Source of the DNA: Paenirhizobium naphthalenivorans
Lineage (GTDB): Bacteria; Pseudomonadota; Alphaproteobacteria; Rhizobiales; Rhizobiaceae
Length of the DNA: 64,000 nt
Direction of reading: 5' to 3'
Assembly (NCBI RefSeq): GCF_007992095.1
Contig: NZ_BJZP01000009.1
Location: forward strand, 62,001 to 126,000
The position numbers and the translations under genes were made by a program. Below the pieces are notes generated by a model. The model was given only the letters and a program-made list of their open reading frames with translations, had not been told where the DNA came from and made no database searches. Of this stretch, positions 7,728-55,200 are shown one piece after another. Each line of letters opens with the position of its first letter. Within the stretch, counting starts at the first letter, position 1.

Positions 7728-7803
<76 letters not shown>

Positions 7804-33330: not shown

Positions 33331-33434
33331 GGTGGGAGGCTGGCACGATGACCCGTGCCGCGCTCGTTAGGGCTGCTTCCTTCCGGACCTGACCCGGTTG
33401 GCGAGTGGCTCGTCCACCACCAACCTCCCGACCC
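33331..33434 (-). ncRNA. ffs: Signal recognition particle RNA (small, 4.5S-type)
   Basis: On the minus strand the signature GGTCAGGTCCGGAAGGAAGC followed by AGCC is the SRP54/Ffh-binding domain IV. Flanking arms close the long hairpin: GGGTCGGGAGGTTGG at the 5' end with CCAGCCTCCCACC at the 3' end. The length of about 104 nt fits the bacterial short form. It lies immediately upstream of dnaX. Exact ends are estimated from the closing stem. Confidence 0.92.
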
Positions 33435-37391: not shown

Positions 37392-38336
37392 CTACTGCAG
37401 GATCCAGGCCCAAAGCGTCACGCTGAGCACCCCGACGGCGGTCGAGAGCGAGATGGCCGAAGCGGCCAGCCCGTGTCCGACACCAAAGCGGTTGGCGATC
37501 AGCCAGGCATTGATGCCGGTCGGGACCGAGGAGGTCAGTACGAGGGCCGCCGTCCAGTCGGCGCTCAATCCCAGGGCCCGGCAGGCAAGCCAGACACAGG
37601 CCGGCATCACGAGCAGTTTTAGGCTCGTGACGACCACCGCAATGCGGACATTGCCGTTGATTCCGTATTTGTTGAGCGCCATGCCGAGCGAAATCAGCGC
37701 GGCCGGCGCCGCCATGGCGGTGATTTGATCCACCACGCTTGCCAAAACGCCGGGAAATTCAAGCCCACTCACATGCACGACAAGACCTGCGGCAAGGCCG
37801 ATGATCAGCGGGTTACGCACTAGATTGGTACCGACTTGGCGCAGTACGTTCACCAGCCCTCGAGCCTCGCCGCCGTTCACCTTGTGCTCGGCGCGCTCCA
37901 TCAGTACCGTTCCGATAACCATCATCAGGGGCAGGTGCACGGCTAGCAAGATCGACACCGCGACGATGCCATCGCTTCCGACGGTACGTTCGACGAGGGG
38001 CAAGCCGATGAAGATGTTGTTGGCAAAGGCGGAGGATACCCCGGCCAGAACCCCCACGCGGGCATCTCGTCCAAAGAAACGCGTTGCCAGAAAATGACCG
38101 AGAGCCCAGGTCACTGCGACGCCGGAGAAGTAAGCGATCCAGAGGCGGAACGGCGAAGCCCCATGGAAGTCGGCATGGGAGATGGTCCTGAAGAGCAGGA
38201 CCGGAACCGCGACCTTGAAGACGAATTCGCCCAAGCCGTCACCAATGTCGGCGTTCAGGATCCGGGTTTTGACGAGCCCCCAGCCAAACAGGATGAGGAT
38301 GAAGATCGGAAAGACGTCTTGGGCAATTTCATACAT
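37392..38336 (-). CDS. AEC-family transporter (auxin efflux carrier-like permease)
   Basis: 314 aa with about ten membrane segments. It starts MYEIAQDVFPIFILILFGWGL, typical of AEC permeases. NIFIGLPL and the C-terminal SSVPTGINAWLIANRFGVG segment (an SxPxG-type crossover motif) support the family. Bacterial AEC members transport malate, malonate or other small carboxylates; the substrate here is unknown. Three small-RNA-like hairpins lie upstream on the same strand, ending in a terminator about 100 nt before this start. Confidence 0.85.
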   Translation of the reverse strand: MYEIAQDVFPIFILILFGWGLVKTRILNADIGDGLGEFVFKVAVPVLLFRTISHADFHGASPFRLWIAYFSGVAVTWALGHFLATRFFGRDARVGVLAGVSSAFANNIFIGLPLVERTVGSDGIVAVSILLAVHLPLMMVIGTVLMERAEHKVNGGEARGLVNVLRQVGTNLVRNPLIIGLAAGLVVHVSGLEFPGVLASVVDQITAMAAPAALISLGMALNKYGINGNVRIAVVVTSLKLLVMPACVWLACRALGLSADWTAALVLTSSVPTGINAWLIANRFGVGHGLAASAISLSTAVGVLSVTLWAWILQ

Positions 38337-38438
38337 GGGCGGAATGGCTCTCAAGGGGGGGCGAGGAGCCGAGATTTACCGTGATGCGGGCTGGACGGCC
38401 AGTACTGATCAGCGTTTGCGAGTACGGTTGTCTGACAA

Positions 38439-38548
38439 GAAAAAAGCGGGGTTTCCCCCGCCTTCCCTCCCGATCTTGCCGGGCCTGAAGCCGCGTCGCC
38501 AGTACATCCGTGGTCGATGCGAGTTCAATCGGGGACGAACATGTCCCC
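38439..38548 (-). ncRNA. Candidate small RNA, copy A of a two-member family
   Basis: Read on minus, hairpin 1 is GGGGAC-ATGTTC-GTCCCC (38531-38548). Hairpin 2 is CGCATCG/CGACGCG (38492-38521) with the 16-nt loop ACCACGGATGTACTGG. The intrinsic terminator is AAGGCGGGG-GAAA-CCCCGCTTTTTT (38439-38464). The same three elements occur in copy B at 52693-52789 with an identical hairpin-2 loop. The 5' end is unknown and no clear promoter is seen. An alternative long pairing extends to about 38577 (GAAGC with GCTTC). An open frame runs through on the same strand but continues past the terminator. Confidence 0.6.
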
Positions 38549-38725
38549 CCGCGGACGGCGATGCCTGTGAGCCGCTTCATGCCGTCTTCACTTGAGGGCT
38601 TTCTAAGGCGTCTGCATGACAAGGGAATGACGTCTTCGGATTTCTTCCCGCGTTGCGGTTTTCGCTTTCCTGCGGAGGAAAAACGGCTATGACCAAAAAA
38701 TAACATTATCGGAGATCCGGAATTT

Positions 38726-39718
38726 ATGAGCAGGTTCGATGTTCTCACCGTCGGTAACGCCATCGTCGACATCATTTCGCGTTGCGAGGATTCCTTTCTC
38801 GTCGACAACGGCATCACCAAGGGAGCAATGAACCTGATTGATGCCGAGCGCGCCGAGACACTCTATGCCCTTATGGGGCCTGCGGTCGAAGCCTCCGGCG
38901 GTAGTGCCGGCAATACGGCAGCCGGCATCGCCAGCCTTGGCGGCAAGGCCGCCTATTTCGGCAAGGTCGCGCAGGATCAGTTGGGCACGATCTTCGCACA
39001 CGACATCCGCGCCCAGGGTGTGCATTACGAGACAAAGCCGGAAGGCACCTTCCCACCGACCGCGCGCAGCATGATTTTCGTCACCGAGGACGGTGAGCGC
39101 TCGATGAACACCTATCTCGGCGCCTGCGTCGAGTTCGGTCCCGAAGACGTCGAACCGGAAATCGTCGCCCAGTCGAAGGTCACCTATTTCGAGGGCTATC
39201 TCTGGGATCCGCCGCGTGCCAAGCAGGCCATTCTCGAATGCGCCCGCATCGCCCACGAGAATGGCCGCGAAATGTCCATGACCCTGTCCGACAGCTTTTG
39301 CGTTGGCCGCTACCGTGACGAATTCCTGGACCTGATGCGCTCCGGTGTCGTCGACATCGTCTTTTCCAACAAGCAGGAAGCCCTTTCGCTCTACGAGACT
39401 GACGACTTCGATTTTGCGCTGGAAAAAATGGCGGGTGACTGCAAGCTCGCTGCGGTGACGATGAGTGACGAAGGGGCGGTGATCCTCAAGGGCAAAGAGC
39501 GTATTCGTGTGGAGGCGACGGTGATCGACGAACTGGTCGACACGACTGGCGCAGGCGATCTGTTCGCTGCCGGTTTCCTCTATGGCTACACCCAAGGGCG
39601 TACGCTCGAAGACTGCGGCCGCATCGGCTGCCTTGCTGCTGGCATCGTCATCCAGCAGATTGGTCCGCGGCCGCTCGGTTCACTGTCCAAGGCGGCACGC
39701 GAAGCCGGGCTTATTTGA
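38726..39718 (+). CDS. PfkB-family adenosine kinase
   Basis: 330 aa. The N-terminal signature LTVGNAIVDII is followed by GGSAGNTAAGIASLGGKAAYFGKV (PfkB box 1) and the C-terminal DTTGAGDLFAAGFLYG with the catalytic Asp (box 2). Overall length and the N-terminal LIDAERAETLYALMGPA-type region match adenosine kinase-like members (adoK), which phosphorylate adenosine to AMP; ribose or other sugars remain possible. The ATG follows GGAGATCCGGAATTT. Its last 8 bases overlap the convergent SH3 gene. Confidence 0.88.
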   Translation: MSRFDVLTVGNAIVDIISRCEDSFLVDNGITKGAMNLIDAERAETLYALMGPAVEASGGSAGNTAAGIASLGGKAAYFGKVAQDQLGTIFAHDIRAQGVHYETKPEGTFPPTARSMIFVTEDGERSMNTYLGACVEFGPEDVEPEIVAQSKVTYFEGYLWDPPRAKQAILECARIAHENGREMSMTLSDSFCVGRYRDEFLDLMRSGVVDIVFSNKQEALSLYETDDFDFALEKMAGDCKLAAVTMSDEGAVILKGKERIRVEATVIDELVDTTGAGDLFAAGFLYGYTQGRTLEDCGRIGCLAAGIVIQQIGPRPLGSLSKAAREAGLI

Positions 39719-45335: not shown

Positions 45336-45593
45336 ATGTCCGACAATTCCGCCTCCCGCCTCGCCCCCTCCAGGTTTCGGCTGTCCATTCTCATGCTGGC
45401 CGCCATCTACCCCTTTGTCACCGCCATCCTCTATATCCTGATGCCGCTGACCGACGGTTGGCCGATCTGGCAGCGGACCGCAATTCTGGCGCCACTTATG
45501 GTTTTCAGTATCGTCTATGGCATTGCGCCGATGATCCAGCAGCGTTTCGCCTGGTTTATCCTGCGCCAGTCGCGCCCGGTGACCATCGACTGA
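45336..45593 (+). CDS. Small two-helix membrane protein under TetR control, 85 aa
   Basis: I do not recognise a firm family. MSDNSASRLAPSRFRLS is followed by a first helix (ILMLAAIYPFVTAILYILM, about 17-36) and a second (RTAILAPLMVFSIVYGIAPMI, about 47-67), ending in a short hydrophilic tail. An in-frame ATG at 45324 would add four residues but falls next to the operator. Twin TetR operators lie directly upstream, so expression is probably induced by the regulator's ligand. A role in drug or stress response is plausible only by analogy with TetR-controlled membrane genes. Confidence 0.75.
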   Translation: MSDNSASRLAPSRFRLSILMLAAIYPFVTAILYILMPLTDGWPIWQRTAILAPLMVFSIVYGIAPMIQQRFAWFILRQSRPVTID

Positions 45594-52001: not shown

Positions 52002-52460
52002 CTATTGGCAGAGATCCGCCCATTCGGCGTTCACCAGTTCTGCCATGCGTTGCGGTGCGATATGAACCGCCGAATTGGTAGCGCCTGCGGCAGGCACCAC
52101 CTGGCCGAAGGCCTTCAGCGAGATGTCGCAATAGACCTTGAGGTCGGAAGGCAGGCCGAAGGGGCAGACGCCGCCGACCGGATGGCTGGTCACTTCGACC
52201 ACCTCTTCCGCCCCAAGCATGCGCGGCTTGACGCCGAAACGGTCTTTGAACTTGCGATTGTCGAGCCGCTTGGTGCCGGCAGTGACGACCAGCACGATAG
52301 TGTCGCCGACCCTCAGGCAAATCGTCTTGGCGATCTGGTCGGGTTCGACGCCATGGGCTTCCGCAGCCAATGCGACCGTCGCAGAGCTTGCATCGGTGAC
52401 GATGACGGTGATTTCGGGGGCTTTTTCAGCGAAGAAAGAACGGACGGATTCAAGGCTCAT
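52002..52460 (-). CDS. ybaK: YbaK/EbsC-family aminoacyl-tRNA deacylase-like protein
   Basis: 152 aa, a single YbaK/ProX domain. QIAKTICLRVGDTIVLVVTAGTKRLDNRKFKDRFG and the HPVGGVCPFGLP loop (GGVCPFG) are typical of the editing pocket, with the conserved Lys in AKTICL. E. coli YbaK deacylates Cys-tRNA(Pro); other members edit Ala-tRNA(Pro), so the specificity here is uncertain. It is on the same strand as pbp, 215 nt upstream of it, with a separate promoter likely. Confidence 0.9.
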   Translation of the reverse strand: MSLESVRSFFAEKAPEITVIVTDASSATVALAAEAHGVEPDQIAKTICLRVGDTIVLVVTAGTKRLDNRKFKDRFGVKPRMLGAEEVVEVTSHPVGGVCPFGLPSDLKVYCDISLKAFGQVVPAAGATNSAVHIAPQRMAELVNAEWADLCQ

Positions 52461-52877
52461 GATGCAATTCTAAGCGCATGTCCCGAAGCTGGGCAAGTGC
52501 GAAAAGGAGATGGGCCTTGATATCGCAACCGGGCCTACCCATCTAGGGTCCAACCAGTGCATGCAGCCATTGATTGATGTGTTGCAGCGTTTTGGATCAG
52601 GAATGCGAAGGGAATTAATCATCGGTTAATCACTTCACTTCATTCTAGTGATCATGGGACGCTGGCTGATACCGATAGGTAAAGGCCATGTCCGGAAATG
52701 CGCATTGCTCGTTTCCGCTCCTGACCACGGATGTACTGGCAGGGGCGTCGAAACGGGATAGGAAAGGTCGGGTATCCCCCGGCCTTTTTGCGTTTCTGGG
52801 CCTGAGCGGAGCGCTGCCGTTTCTGGCCTGAACAGGCGAAGCGCGCCGGCTGGCAAGGCGACGCGCCTTCAGTTTTC
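52461..52877. other. 417-bp region between ybaK and the M20 gene
   Basis: No ordinary protein gene is supported. On plus it holds the copy B small RNA (52693-52789). AT-rich sequence around 52610-52660 could hold its promoter, but no clean -35/-10 pair is visible. A 47-codon ATG-led frame (52688-52831) overlaps the RNA and its terminator. Confidence 0.5.
52693..52789 (+). ncRNA. Candidate small RNA, copy B of a two-member family
   Basis: Hairpin 1 is CGGAAA/TTTCCG (52693-52717). Hairpin 2 is CTCCTG/CAGGGG (52718-52745) around the loop ACCACGGATGTACTGG (52724-52739). The terminator is AAGGTCGGG-TATCC-CCCGGCCTTTTT (52764-52789). Compared with copy A, the hairpin-2 segment GACCACGGATGTACTGGC (52723-52740) is identical. 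The stems differ in sequence but still pair, and the terminator has the same 9-bp size and spacing. That pattern of conserved loop and changed stems argues for RNA function. The 5' end is not determined. Confidence 0.62.
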
Positions 52878-54269
52878 TTACGCCGAGGCCAGCGCATCCA
52901 GGATGCGGATCCACGACCGGATGCCTTTATGGAAGGACTTCAGGTCGTATTTCTCGTTTGGCGAGTGAATGCGGTCGTCGGTCAGGCCGAAGCCGACCAG
53001 CAGGGAATCCATGCCGAGCGTTTTCTGGAAATCGCCGACGATCGGGATCGAGCCGCCCATGCCGATGACGACGGCCGGCTTTGGCCATTCGTCCGACAGA
53101 GCGTTCTTCGCCTTGGTCAGGACAGGGGAATCGTAGGACAGCTGGATCGCGGGCGAACCGCCGTGCTCGTGGAAGTCCACCGAGCAGTCGGCCGGGATCT
53201 TGGAGCGTACATAGGCGCGGAAGCTCTCGCGGATCTTCGCCGGGTCCTGCTCGCCGACCAGGCGGAACGAAACCTTGGCCGAGGCTTTGGCGGCGATCAC
53301 GGTCTTGAAGCCTTCGCCGGTATATCCGCCGGTAATACCGTTCACTTCCGCCGTCGGCCGTGCCCAGGTAAGCTCCAGCACCGAGCGGCCTTTTTCGCCC
53401 GAGGGGATCGACAGGCCGACTTCACCAAGGAAGCCTTCTGCCGTACGGCCGAGTGTTTCCCAGGATGCCTTGATATTGGCTGGTGTCTCCTCGACTCCTT
53501 CATAAAAGCCGGGCAGGGTGATGCGGCCGGTCTCGTCATGCAGGCCAGCCAATATCTCGACCAGGATGTGGATCGGATTGGCCGCAGCGCCGCCGAACAG
53601 GCCCGAGTGAAGGTCGCGATCGGCCGCCGTAACGATTATTTCTTCGCCGACCAAGCCGCGTAGTGCCGCCGCAATGGCTGGTGTTTCCGTGTTCCACATG
53701 CTGGTGTCGCAGACCAGCGCATAGTCGGCCTTCAGCTCTTCCGCGTTGGCGGACAGGAATGGCTTGAGCGAGGGCGATCCAGATTCTTCCTCACCCTCGA
53801 ACAGGATACTGACCTTGATCGGCAGGCTGCCATGTACAGCCTTATAGGCGCGGCACGCTTCGACGAAGGTCAAGAGTTGTCCCTTGTCGTCGGATGTGCC
53901 GCGACCGGTGATAACCTTGCGGCCCGGTTCGATCTCCTTGATCGTCGGCGCGAAGGGATCCTCTTCCCAAAGGTTCAGCGGATCGACCGGCTGAACGTCG
54001 TAGTGGCCGTAGAACAAGACGTGCGGCGCGTCGGGTTTTGCCCCGGCGTGGTGGGCGACGACCATCGGATGGCCGGGTGTGTCGCGCATGGAGGCCTCGA
54101 AACCAAGCCCGGTCAACTCGTTGACCAGCCATTCTGCGGCTTTGCGGCACTCGGCCTTGAAGGCCGGATCGGTCGAAATCGAGCGGATCCTGACGAGATC
54201 GAACAGGCGCTCCAGGCTGCCGGGCAAGGTCTGGTCGGCGCGGTCGAGTACGGCGGAAATATCGGTCAT
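52878..54269 (-). CDS. M20-family metallodipeptidase
   Basis: 463 aa. Zinc-dependent peptidase of the M20 (CPG2/ArgE/DapE-like) group. HVLFYGHYDVQPVDP carries the first metal His and catalytic Asp. GRGTSDDKGQL has the bridging Asp, and FEGEEESGSPSL the catalytic and metal Glu. RDLHSGLFGGAAANPIH starts the dimerisation lid. DLKSFHKGI near the end holds the last metal His. The size and motifs fit dipeptidases of the DUG1/carnosinase-like subgroup. Likely cytoplasmic peptide salvage. It stands downstream of MarR on the same strand with a 105-nt gap. Confidence 0.9.
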   Translation of the reverse strand: MTDISAVLDRADQTLPGSLERLFDLVRIRSISTDPAFKAECRKAAEWLVNELTGLGFEASMRDTPGHPMVVAHHAGAKPDAPHVLFYGHYDVQPVDPLNLWEEDPFAPTIKEIEPGRKVITGRGTSDDKGQLLTFVEACRAYKAVHGSLPIKVSILFEGEEESGSPSLKPFLSANAEELKADYALVCDTSMWNTETPAIAAALRGLVGEEIIVTAADRDLHSGLFGGAAANPIHILVEILAGLHDETGRITLPGFYEGVEETPANIKASWETLGRTAEGFLGEVGLSIPSGEKGRSVLELTWARPTAEVNGITGGYTGEGFKTVIAAKASAKVSFRLVGEQDPAKIRESFRAYVRSKIPADCSVDFHEHGGSPAIQLSYDSPVLTKAKNALSDEWPKPAVVIGMGGSIPIVGDFQKTLGMDSLLVGFGLTDDRIHSPNEKYDLKSFHKGIRSWIRILDALASA

Positions 54270-54911: not shown

Positions 54912-55050
54912 GGACATAAAGAAGCCGCCATGGCTTGGGGGCGGATACCATGGCGGCTTCGAATGAGGGACAAAGGCCCGGAGAGGGGGATAAGGCCTTT
55001 GTCCAGTCTGAAGCGGCGGGGGACGAGCCTCATTCAGACCGCGGCGTGAT
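54912..55050 (-). ncRNA. Alpha-r7-like small RNA (Smr7C family)
   Basis: Three hairpins in the MarR-polA gap: GTCTGAA/TTCAGAC (55006-55039), GGACAAAGGCC/GGCCTTTGTCC (54968-55004, 11 bp) and GAAGCCGCCATGG/CCATGGCGGCTTC (54921-54960, 13 bp). Read on minus, the last is followed by TTTATG and ends the transcript. Three stem-loops between a MarR gene and polA match what I recall of Smr7C/alpha-r7 in Sinorhizobium meliloti. The strand is inferred from the terminator-like hairpin; ends are approximate. Confidence 0.65.
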
Positions 55051-55200
55051 CAGGCGCCGGTGACTATGAAATGTGTGGTGAAATGCGGCTTTTCAAGGGA
55101 AGGCTGGATTACAAATCTGTAACGTTTGTGTGTTCGGGACGACCGGCCTCAGGCGAACTTTATATGGACGCCCCGGGCGCCCCGCGCTATCCATGCCCAC

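Follow-up and report, generated by a model that had tools for sequence, protein, structure and literature searches.

The window analysed here, a stretch of 64,000 nt from Paenirhizobium naphthalenivorans (contig NZ_BJZP01000009.1), holds two copies of a hairpin RNA element that is real and belongs to an already known family, ar35 in Rfam and SmelB053 in the literature. Judged from the sequence, copy B is an ordinary ar35 member that brings a new regulatory clue, and copy A is a new, divergent member with syntenic relatives. Both are predicted stand-alone RNA genes of the ar35 type, and we tentatively favour, at somewhat less than even confidence, the reading that they act as decoys, drawing a putative RNA-binding factor off the messages of cold-shock (csp) genes. 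New here are the covariation of the stem round a fixed core, with rare double changes within the core helix, and the finding of csp-linked copies beyond the host's order, of copies in viral contigs and of a CtrA-type box on stand-alone copies; of these, the box, the inner variants that preserve pairing and the occurrence in viruses deserve to be followed up.

Two loci of one RNA family

An earlier note on this DNA had described two paralogous small-RNA-like loci sharing an 18-nt segment, and the segment (GACCACGGATGTACTGGC) is indeed exact at 38498-38515 on the minus strand and 52723-52740 on the plus strand, with no third site in the window at up to three mismatches. In 100 shuffles it gave a mean of 0.01 matches, and never two. 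Both copies are intergenic, A between the Mem_trans and PfkB genes and B between the YbaK-like and M20 genes; their features are listed below, where R1 is a covariance model built from 54 hairpins, copies A and B included.

37392..38354, minus strand: transporter gene (PF03547, Mem_trans), downstream neighbour of copy A
38437..38587, minus strand: sub-threshold Rfam ar35 match of copy A (19.2 bits, cut-off 45)
38439..38464, minus strand: copy A terminator-like hairpin and T run (sequence, fold)
38485..38528, minus strand: copy A core hairpin (R1 match, 40.2 bits; predicted fold; training row of R1)
38499..38514, minus strand: copy A fixed 16-nt core ACCACGGATGTACTGG (exact match)
38531..38548, minus strand: copy A small 5′ hairpin GGGGAC/GTCCCC (predicted fold)
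38726..39718, plus strand: PfkB-family kinase gene (PF00294), divergent neighbour of copy A
52002..52460, minus strand: gene for a YbaK-like aminoacyl-tRNA editing domain protein (PF04073), divergent neighbour of copy B
52615..52629, plus strand: copy B CtrA-type box TTAATCATCGGTTAA (TTAA-N7-TTAA), at similar spacing in orthologues of the locus
52681..52794, plus strand: copy B match to Rfam ar35 (RF02346; 55.7 bits, cut-off 45)
52710..52753, plus strand: copy B core hairpin (R1 match, 49.2 bits; predicted fold; training row of R1)
52724..52739, plus strand: copy B fixed 16-nt core (exact match)
52763..52789, plus strand: copy B terminator-like hairpin and T run (sequence, fold)
52878..54269, minus strand: peptidase family M20 gene (PF01546), convergent neighbour of copy B

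In the predicted fold of both copies, a stem of differing sequence leads through a bulged A into an inner CCA/UGG helix and a 9-nt loop, CGGAUGUAC. The two stems do differ and do both pair, as had been claimed; what had been described upon them as a 16-nt loop stands as a shared core but not as an open loop, since the inner helix closes it down to nine nucleotides. The smaller hairpin said to lie just 5′ folds as described in copy A, where no counterpart stands out in the alignment of relatives (judged by eye), but the CGGAAA/TTTCCG pairing of copy B is absent from the predicted fold, in which GTTTCC pairs within the main hairpin. A terminator-like hairpin with a T run lies 3′ of both core hairpins, in line with the note's claim; a simple consensus scan of the window missed the two terminator hairpins. 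Against shuffles, the 50-nt hairpin of copy B folds with a z of -4.17 and that of copy A with a z of -0.49 (53 of 200 shuffles fold equally well), while the predicted whole transcripts reach -5.35 (B) and -2.12 (A).

The hunch that the element might already exist among the alpha-r sRNAs proved right, in that copy B passes the ar35 cut-off. Comparison with the Rfam alpha-r models does not place copy A there, which remains at 19.2 bits (E 0.19, 451 bases against all families), nor any of the five relatives of its locus; the same cut-off was passed by 5 of 18 scanned loci (all with the core and without an upstream csp ORF). Both copies nevertheless fit the features of SmelB053, a GGAUGUA-loop stem-loop followed by a terminator stem-loop. 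The claim of paralogous loci is upheld, with copy A as a divergent relative. The extracts at hand of the 2011 paper on this family (PMC3927594) describe the GGAUGUA loop, the terminator and several copies per genome, and report 33 SmelB053-like 3′-UTRs, of which 29 lie at cold-shock genes. Its authors there propose Hfq-linked regulation for the csp 3′-UTRs, with a suggested role in stability, and interceptor transcripts for the sRNAs, whose function they leave open. Copies A and B thus share with SmelB053/ar35 (alpha-r35) the core hairpin, the terminator, the multicopy habit and the csp 3′-UTR relatives, and differ from it in that copy A lies below the cut-off at a locus of its own; the extracts of the SmelB053 paper (PMC3927594) mention neither a CtrA-type box nor copies in viruses. 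A search of open-licence PubMed Central papers found no later work on the element.

Copies behind cold-shock genes, in other genomes and in viral contigs

The two copies first noted are both real, but the 4.95 Mb draft genome contains five exact copies of the inner 16-mer, with no further site at up to two mismatches. Three of the five sit 19, 20 and 22 nt after csp stop codons; unlike these, A and B are not directly behind one. A PF00313 search of the genome gave ten matches in nine ORFs, and among the eight csp genes examined (L262, the ninth, left out) three carry the exact core, one a three-mismatch variant, ACTACGGATATACCGG, and four are without the element. The lack of the element at half of these genes, and its presence at another only as the variant, count against the decoy reading.

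Beyond this genome, a scan of genome contigs for the 16-mer returned at least 121 matches in at least 119 stretches, nearly all of them, among the matches listed and by record titles, from Hyphomicrobiales; a Firmicute match among those listed (L132) lies inside an ORF and lacks the stem. A csp ORF occurs within 300 nt upstream in 70 of 126 places (our five and the matches listed), at a spacing of 16-37 nt in 57 of these 70. With R1, whose training rows all had exact cores and whose strict filters add to an undercount of distant forms, 40 of 61 genomes of the host family matched at E 1e-5, with up to seven copies each. At E 0.001 it matched 23 of the 101 genomes sampled from the order and 10 of 190 drawn from the class; the 78 sampled genomes of the order in which R1 finds nothing at E 0.001 speak against the decoy reading. 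Eight of the ten genomes from the class draw lie outside the order. In five of them the core is exact and a csp frame ends 23-135 nt before it; no such frame was found in one genome with a single mismatch or in L341, with two, and the eighth match, L340, looks like chance. Because it is the location seen in those five of eight, the csp 3′-UTR is probably an older site than the stand-alone one. The R1 matches at L326, L340 and positions 45436 and 46171 of the window look like chance. In plasmids, copy A had no match and copy B matched 15 records, ten of them from Ensifer.

The listed matches also show some arrangements of their own. Martelella radicis (L077) has a tandem pair of core hairpins behind one csp gene, a Hoeflea MAG (L129) two stand-alone copies about 1.65 kb apart, and R. 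leguminosarum Norway (L086) gctgacc-type repeat units following the element. In L114 and L158 the element comes 27 nt after the stop codon of a PRC-barrel gene, and U-A replaces G-C beside the core.

Stand-alone copies recur in synteny. Among the matches listed, copy A has such relatives at five loci, of which L047, L061 and L098 keep the kinase as well as the transporter neighbour and L041 and L118 keep one of the two; relatives of copy B keep the peptidase neighbour 82-137 nt downstream at nine. Upstream of the copy B orthologues the DNA aligns poorly save round TTAA-N7-TTAA, the box that in the window begins at 52615 and is of the kind looked for upstream of CtrA-regulon members; the consensus given for S. 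meliloti CtrA in the part of PMC3616915 at hand is TAA-N7-TTAAC, with 7-nt spacing. Of 52 stand-alone host copies among the matches listed, 12 have an exact box within 250 nt, where shuffles gave 0.12 on average and never more than 1. The number stands for fewer independent cases as the boxed loci are partly orthologous: the independent ones are the copy B locus, a Mesorhizobium locus behind a GST-domain gene (L017, L070), a Bartonella locus (L128), L022, L041 and L045. The box occurs with 1 of 69 csp-linked copies, namely L024, an orthologue of the copy B locus whose csp ORF is 243 nt upstream, and with none of 48 viral stand-alone or 29 viral csp-linked copies, again among the matches listed. 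By density, 55 loci gave 13 boxes in 13,440 nt, compared with 9 in 55,002 nt of their other non-ORF DNA. A second set of 28 loci, which partly overlaps the first (L364, for example, resembles L129) and whose three boxed flanks are new, has the exact box at 3 of its 11 stand-alone copies and at none of its 17 csp-linked ones. Copy A has no exact CtrA box, and this too weighs against the decoy reading.

Carrying the box, copy B is predicted to be expressed in step with the cell cycle. That the box serves the YbaK-like gene rather than copy B was considered and rejected: in L024, L099 and L122 this gene is 945-1071 nt off, and the box starts 93-106 nt before the 16-mer (with one mismatch in L122). 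In L034 and in the window the YbaK-like gene is closer, and the box could serve both. Elsewhere in the window, exact TTAA-N7-TTAA boxes occur only at 2186 and 51921. The main text of PMC4433202, on CtrA in S. meliloti, makes no mention of sRNA, small RNA, ncRNA, TTAA or cold shock.

Viral contigs carry the element as well, with the 16-mer present in at least 120 stretches of IMG/VR. Among the matches listed, 120 were usable, 101 of them with both innermost flanking pairs and 43 with a csp ORF upstream; IMG/VR contigs can carry the host flank of proviruses, so the csp-linked cases may be host DNA, a further point against the decoy reading. Stand-alone copies in L145, L203, L224 and L248 have a phage primase-polymerase gene within about 2.5 kb, and L199 a terminase gene about 2 kb off. 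The Rfam ar35 cut-off was passed in 9 of 13 viral loci scanned, by L199 with 144.7 bits. On a viral contig of 435,856 bp (L188:510-626) a tRNA-Arg gene, part of a cluster of 11 tRNAs, is followed immediately on its 3′ side by the core hairpin, here with 10 bp of unbroken stem. Named phages (INPHARED), searched with two element queries, gave only weak, chance-like matches.

Changing stems and an apparently structured core

The earlier note had seen changed stems around a fixed segment and had named paired-base covariation as one check, and such covariation is found both in rows unfiltered for pairing and in a filtered alignment, A1. In 118 distinct unfiltered rows (from the matches listed), outer stem pairs -2, -3, -4, -5, -6 and -8 exceed all 1000 shuffles, pair -1 ties the largest shuffle value, pair -7 is within the range (63, largest 65), as are pairs -9 to -12. 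The covariation score of A1 is 0.427 against 0.160 in shuffles. Double changes occur in 8 of its 11 pairs, a figure that shuffles approach (mean 7.1) and that 27 of 500 reach, and which therefore counts against the decoy reading.

Within the core, double changes are rare and keep the pair: A4-U14 becomes G4-C14 in L322, L331 and L332, and C2-G16 becomes U2-A16 in L341. An inner helix pair is broken in L253, L323 and L325, to the detriment of the decoy reading. When csp genes from viral contigs were fetched regardless of motif, 35 of 41 loci had a readable 3′ end, many of these closely related and so not 35 independent events; 32 carry the exact core, one has it at one mismatch and two are without it. 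Because the inner helix changes in pairs and the core barely varies, the core resembles a small site that is structured and would be read as such, and not a free loop.

Possible roles: decoys, seeds or message ends

On the reading we favour, a putative protein would read the fixed core of the hairpin; at csp 3′-UTRs this reader would set mRNA stability or translation in cis, the stand-alone RNAs would titrate the same reader in competition with csp mRNAs, and phage copies would exploit the same factor. Counted in its favour are the copies behind csp genes, the covarying stem round a nearly constant core, the paired changes of the inner helix, the box on stand-alone host copies, the stand-alone viral copies and the lack of excess complementarity to csp mRNAs. 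A reader of the hairpin is favoured because complementarity between loop and csp messages, a small ORF and CsrA all fail as explanations. The earlier note had proposed instead that the loop segment is the seed of base-pairing, trans-acting sRNAs with one or more mRNA targets. Most known trans-acting sRNAs do act by base-pairing, ar35 is filed in Rfam as an sRNA, and a shared seed, too, would show as a constant segment between variable stems; yet this core holds a closed helix and a bulge, the helix changes in pairs, the same element is located in csp 3′-UTRs, and the genome offers no further site on either strand at 14 or more of 16 matches. Loop pairing with csp mRNAs was rejected, as the best duplexes in 68 csp regions are weaker on average than those of 28 of 30 shuffled loops. 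That the RNAs act in trans remains plausible, though by drawing off a factor and not as antisense RNAs, and the seed is the less likely part of the proposal; we regard base-pairing as doubtful.

It is unlikely, in our estimate, that the element is purely a cis-acting module of mRNA 3′ ends, a decay block or terminator helper with no role in trans, whose stand-alone copies are short transcripts or relics. If it did no more than block decay, there would be no need for the core to be fixed, and stand-alone host copies retain a promoter-type box in orthologues that can otherwise hardly be aligned. Such a module would nonetheless account for the constant orientation before a terminator wherever one is seen, for the proximity to csp stop codons and for the copies that follow a GST gene or a PRC-barrel gene, and it accords with the stability role, with Hfq, that the extracts of PMC3927594 suggest for csp 3′-UTRs. 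The reader might also be a cold-shock protein itself, with csp autoregulation through the 3′-UTR and the ar35-type RNAs as Csp sponges, and here the attachment of the element chiefly to csp genes would find its reason. Csp proteins, however, show little sequence preference in binding single strands, none of 67 csp promoters has a CtrA box of the copy B type, and the PRC and GST cases fit poorly, so we hold this to be very unlikely, even though a Csp sponge under the control of CtrA would complete a circuit: in the part of PMC5928217 at hand, CspA5 of S. meliloti raises the translation of ctrA, and a putative CtrA motif lies in the promoter of cspA5. Scarcely credible is a tiny conserved ORF opening at the fixed AUG-UAC-UGG of the core. 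The Rfam ar35 consensus would translate as MYWHWC-stop, but the ORFs that follow the AUG spread in length as in the other two frames, their peptides differ, the AUG is lost in the variants L253 and L286, and covariation is an RNA signal.

The closest analogy to the decoy reading is CsrA with its decoy CsrB. The core loop holds CACGGAUGU, which fits the CsrA site consensus, CANGGANGU, and the logic would be the same, with one site both in messages and in decoy RNAs. CsrB-type sponges carry many GGA sites per RNA; A and B have a single core each, a difference that counts against the decoy reading. CsrA itself was rejected as the reader: it had no match in this genome even at E 10, nor, at E 0.001, in any of 101 genomes from the order, while the controls were positive in 3 of 14. 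For ribosomal RNA as a partner or model, 16S rRNA had no match in the draft assembly. The boldest version of the decoy reading would be a CsrA-like system built on an unrelated protein in alpha-proteobacteria without CsrA, with the GGA-loop hairpin in csp messages as the site, CtrA-fired ar35-type RNAs as decoys and temperate phages bearing decoys of their own; as a whole it is clearly unlikely. Were the decoy reading true, cell-cycle control would be tied to cold-shock messages, and a protein-decoy RNA system would exist in bacteria where, by the extract at hand of an earlier study (PMC2573895), none of the CsrA type was expected. The element offers handles in a 44-nt hairpin, a defined set of csp messages and a predicted regulator, CtrA, and the phage copies suggest a switch worth capturing.

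Other known systems resemble the element in part. The Hfq-bound stem-loops of the E. coli cspA 3′-UTR, as cited in the extracts of PMC3927594, likewise give a csp message a structured 3′ end, with a proposed role in decay, but the core described above is not claimed for E. coli. NfeR1/alpha-r14 RNAs, as extracts of a review present them, occur in several copies in alpha-proteobacteria and combine a fixed loop with stems that are hypervariable; theirs are three hairpins with the anti-Shine-Dalgarno loop motif CCUCCUCCC (PMC3927594), whereas the predicted core loop here is CGGAUGUAC. CcnA of Caulobacter has a different core, a CCCC loop that acts on the ctrA and gcrA 5′-UTRs.

Some smaller observations concern neighbouring genes. 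DNA methyltransferase genes, too, lie near the stand-alone copies of L145, L203, L224 and L248, where the ar35-type RNA appears as a recurring phage gene. The window also contains a tRNA gene at 7728-7800 (plus strand), a bacterial small SRP RNA (Rfam) at 33332-33428 (minus strand) and, 2 kb from copy B, Rfam ar7 (RF02342) at 54919-55062 (minus strand, 107.7 bits), which is likewise found near the element in L095, a relative of the copy B locus.
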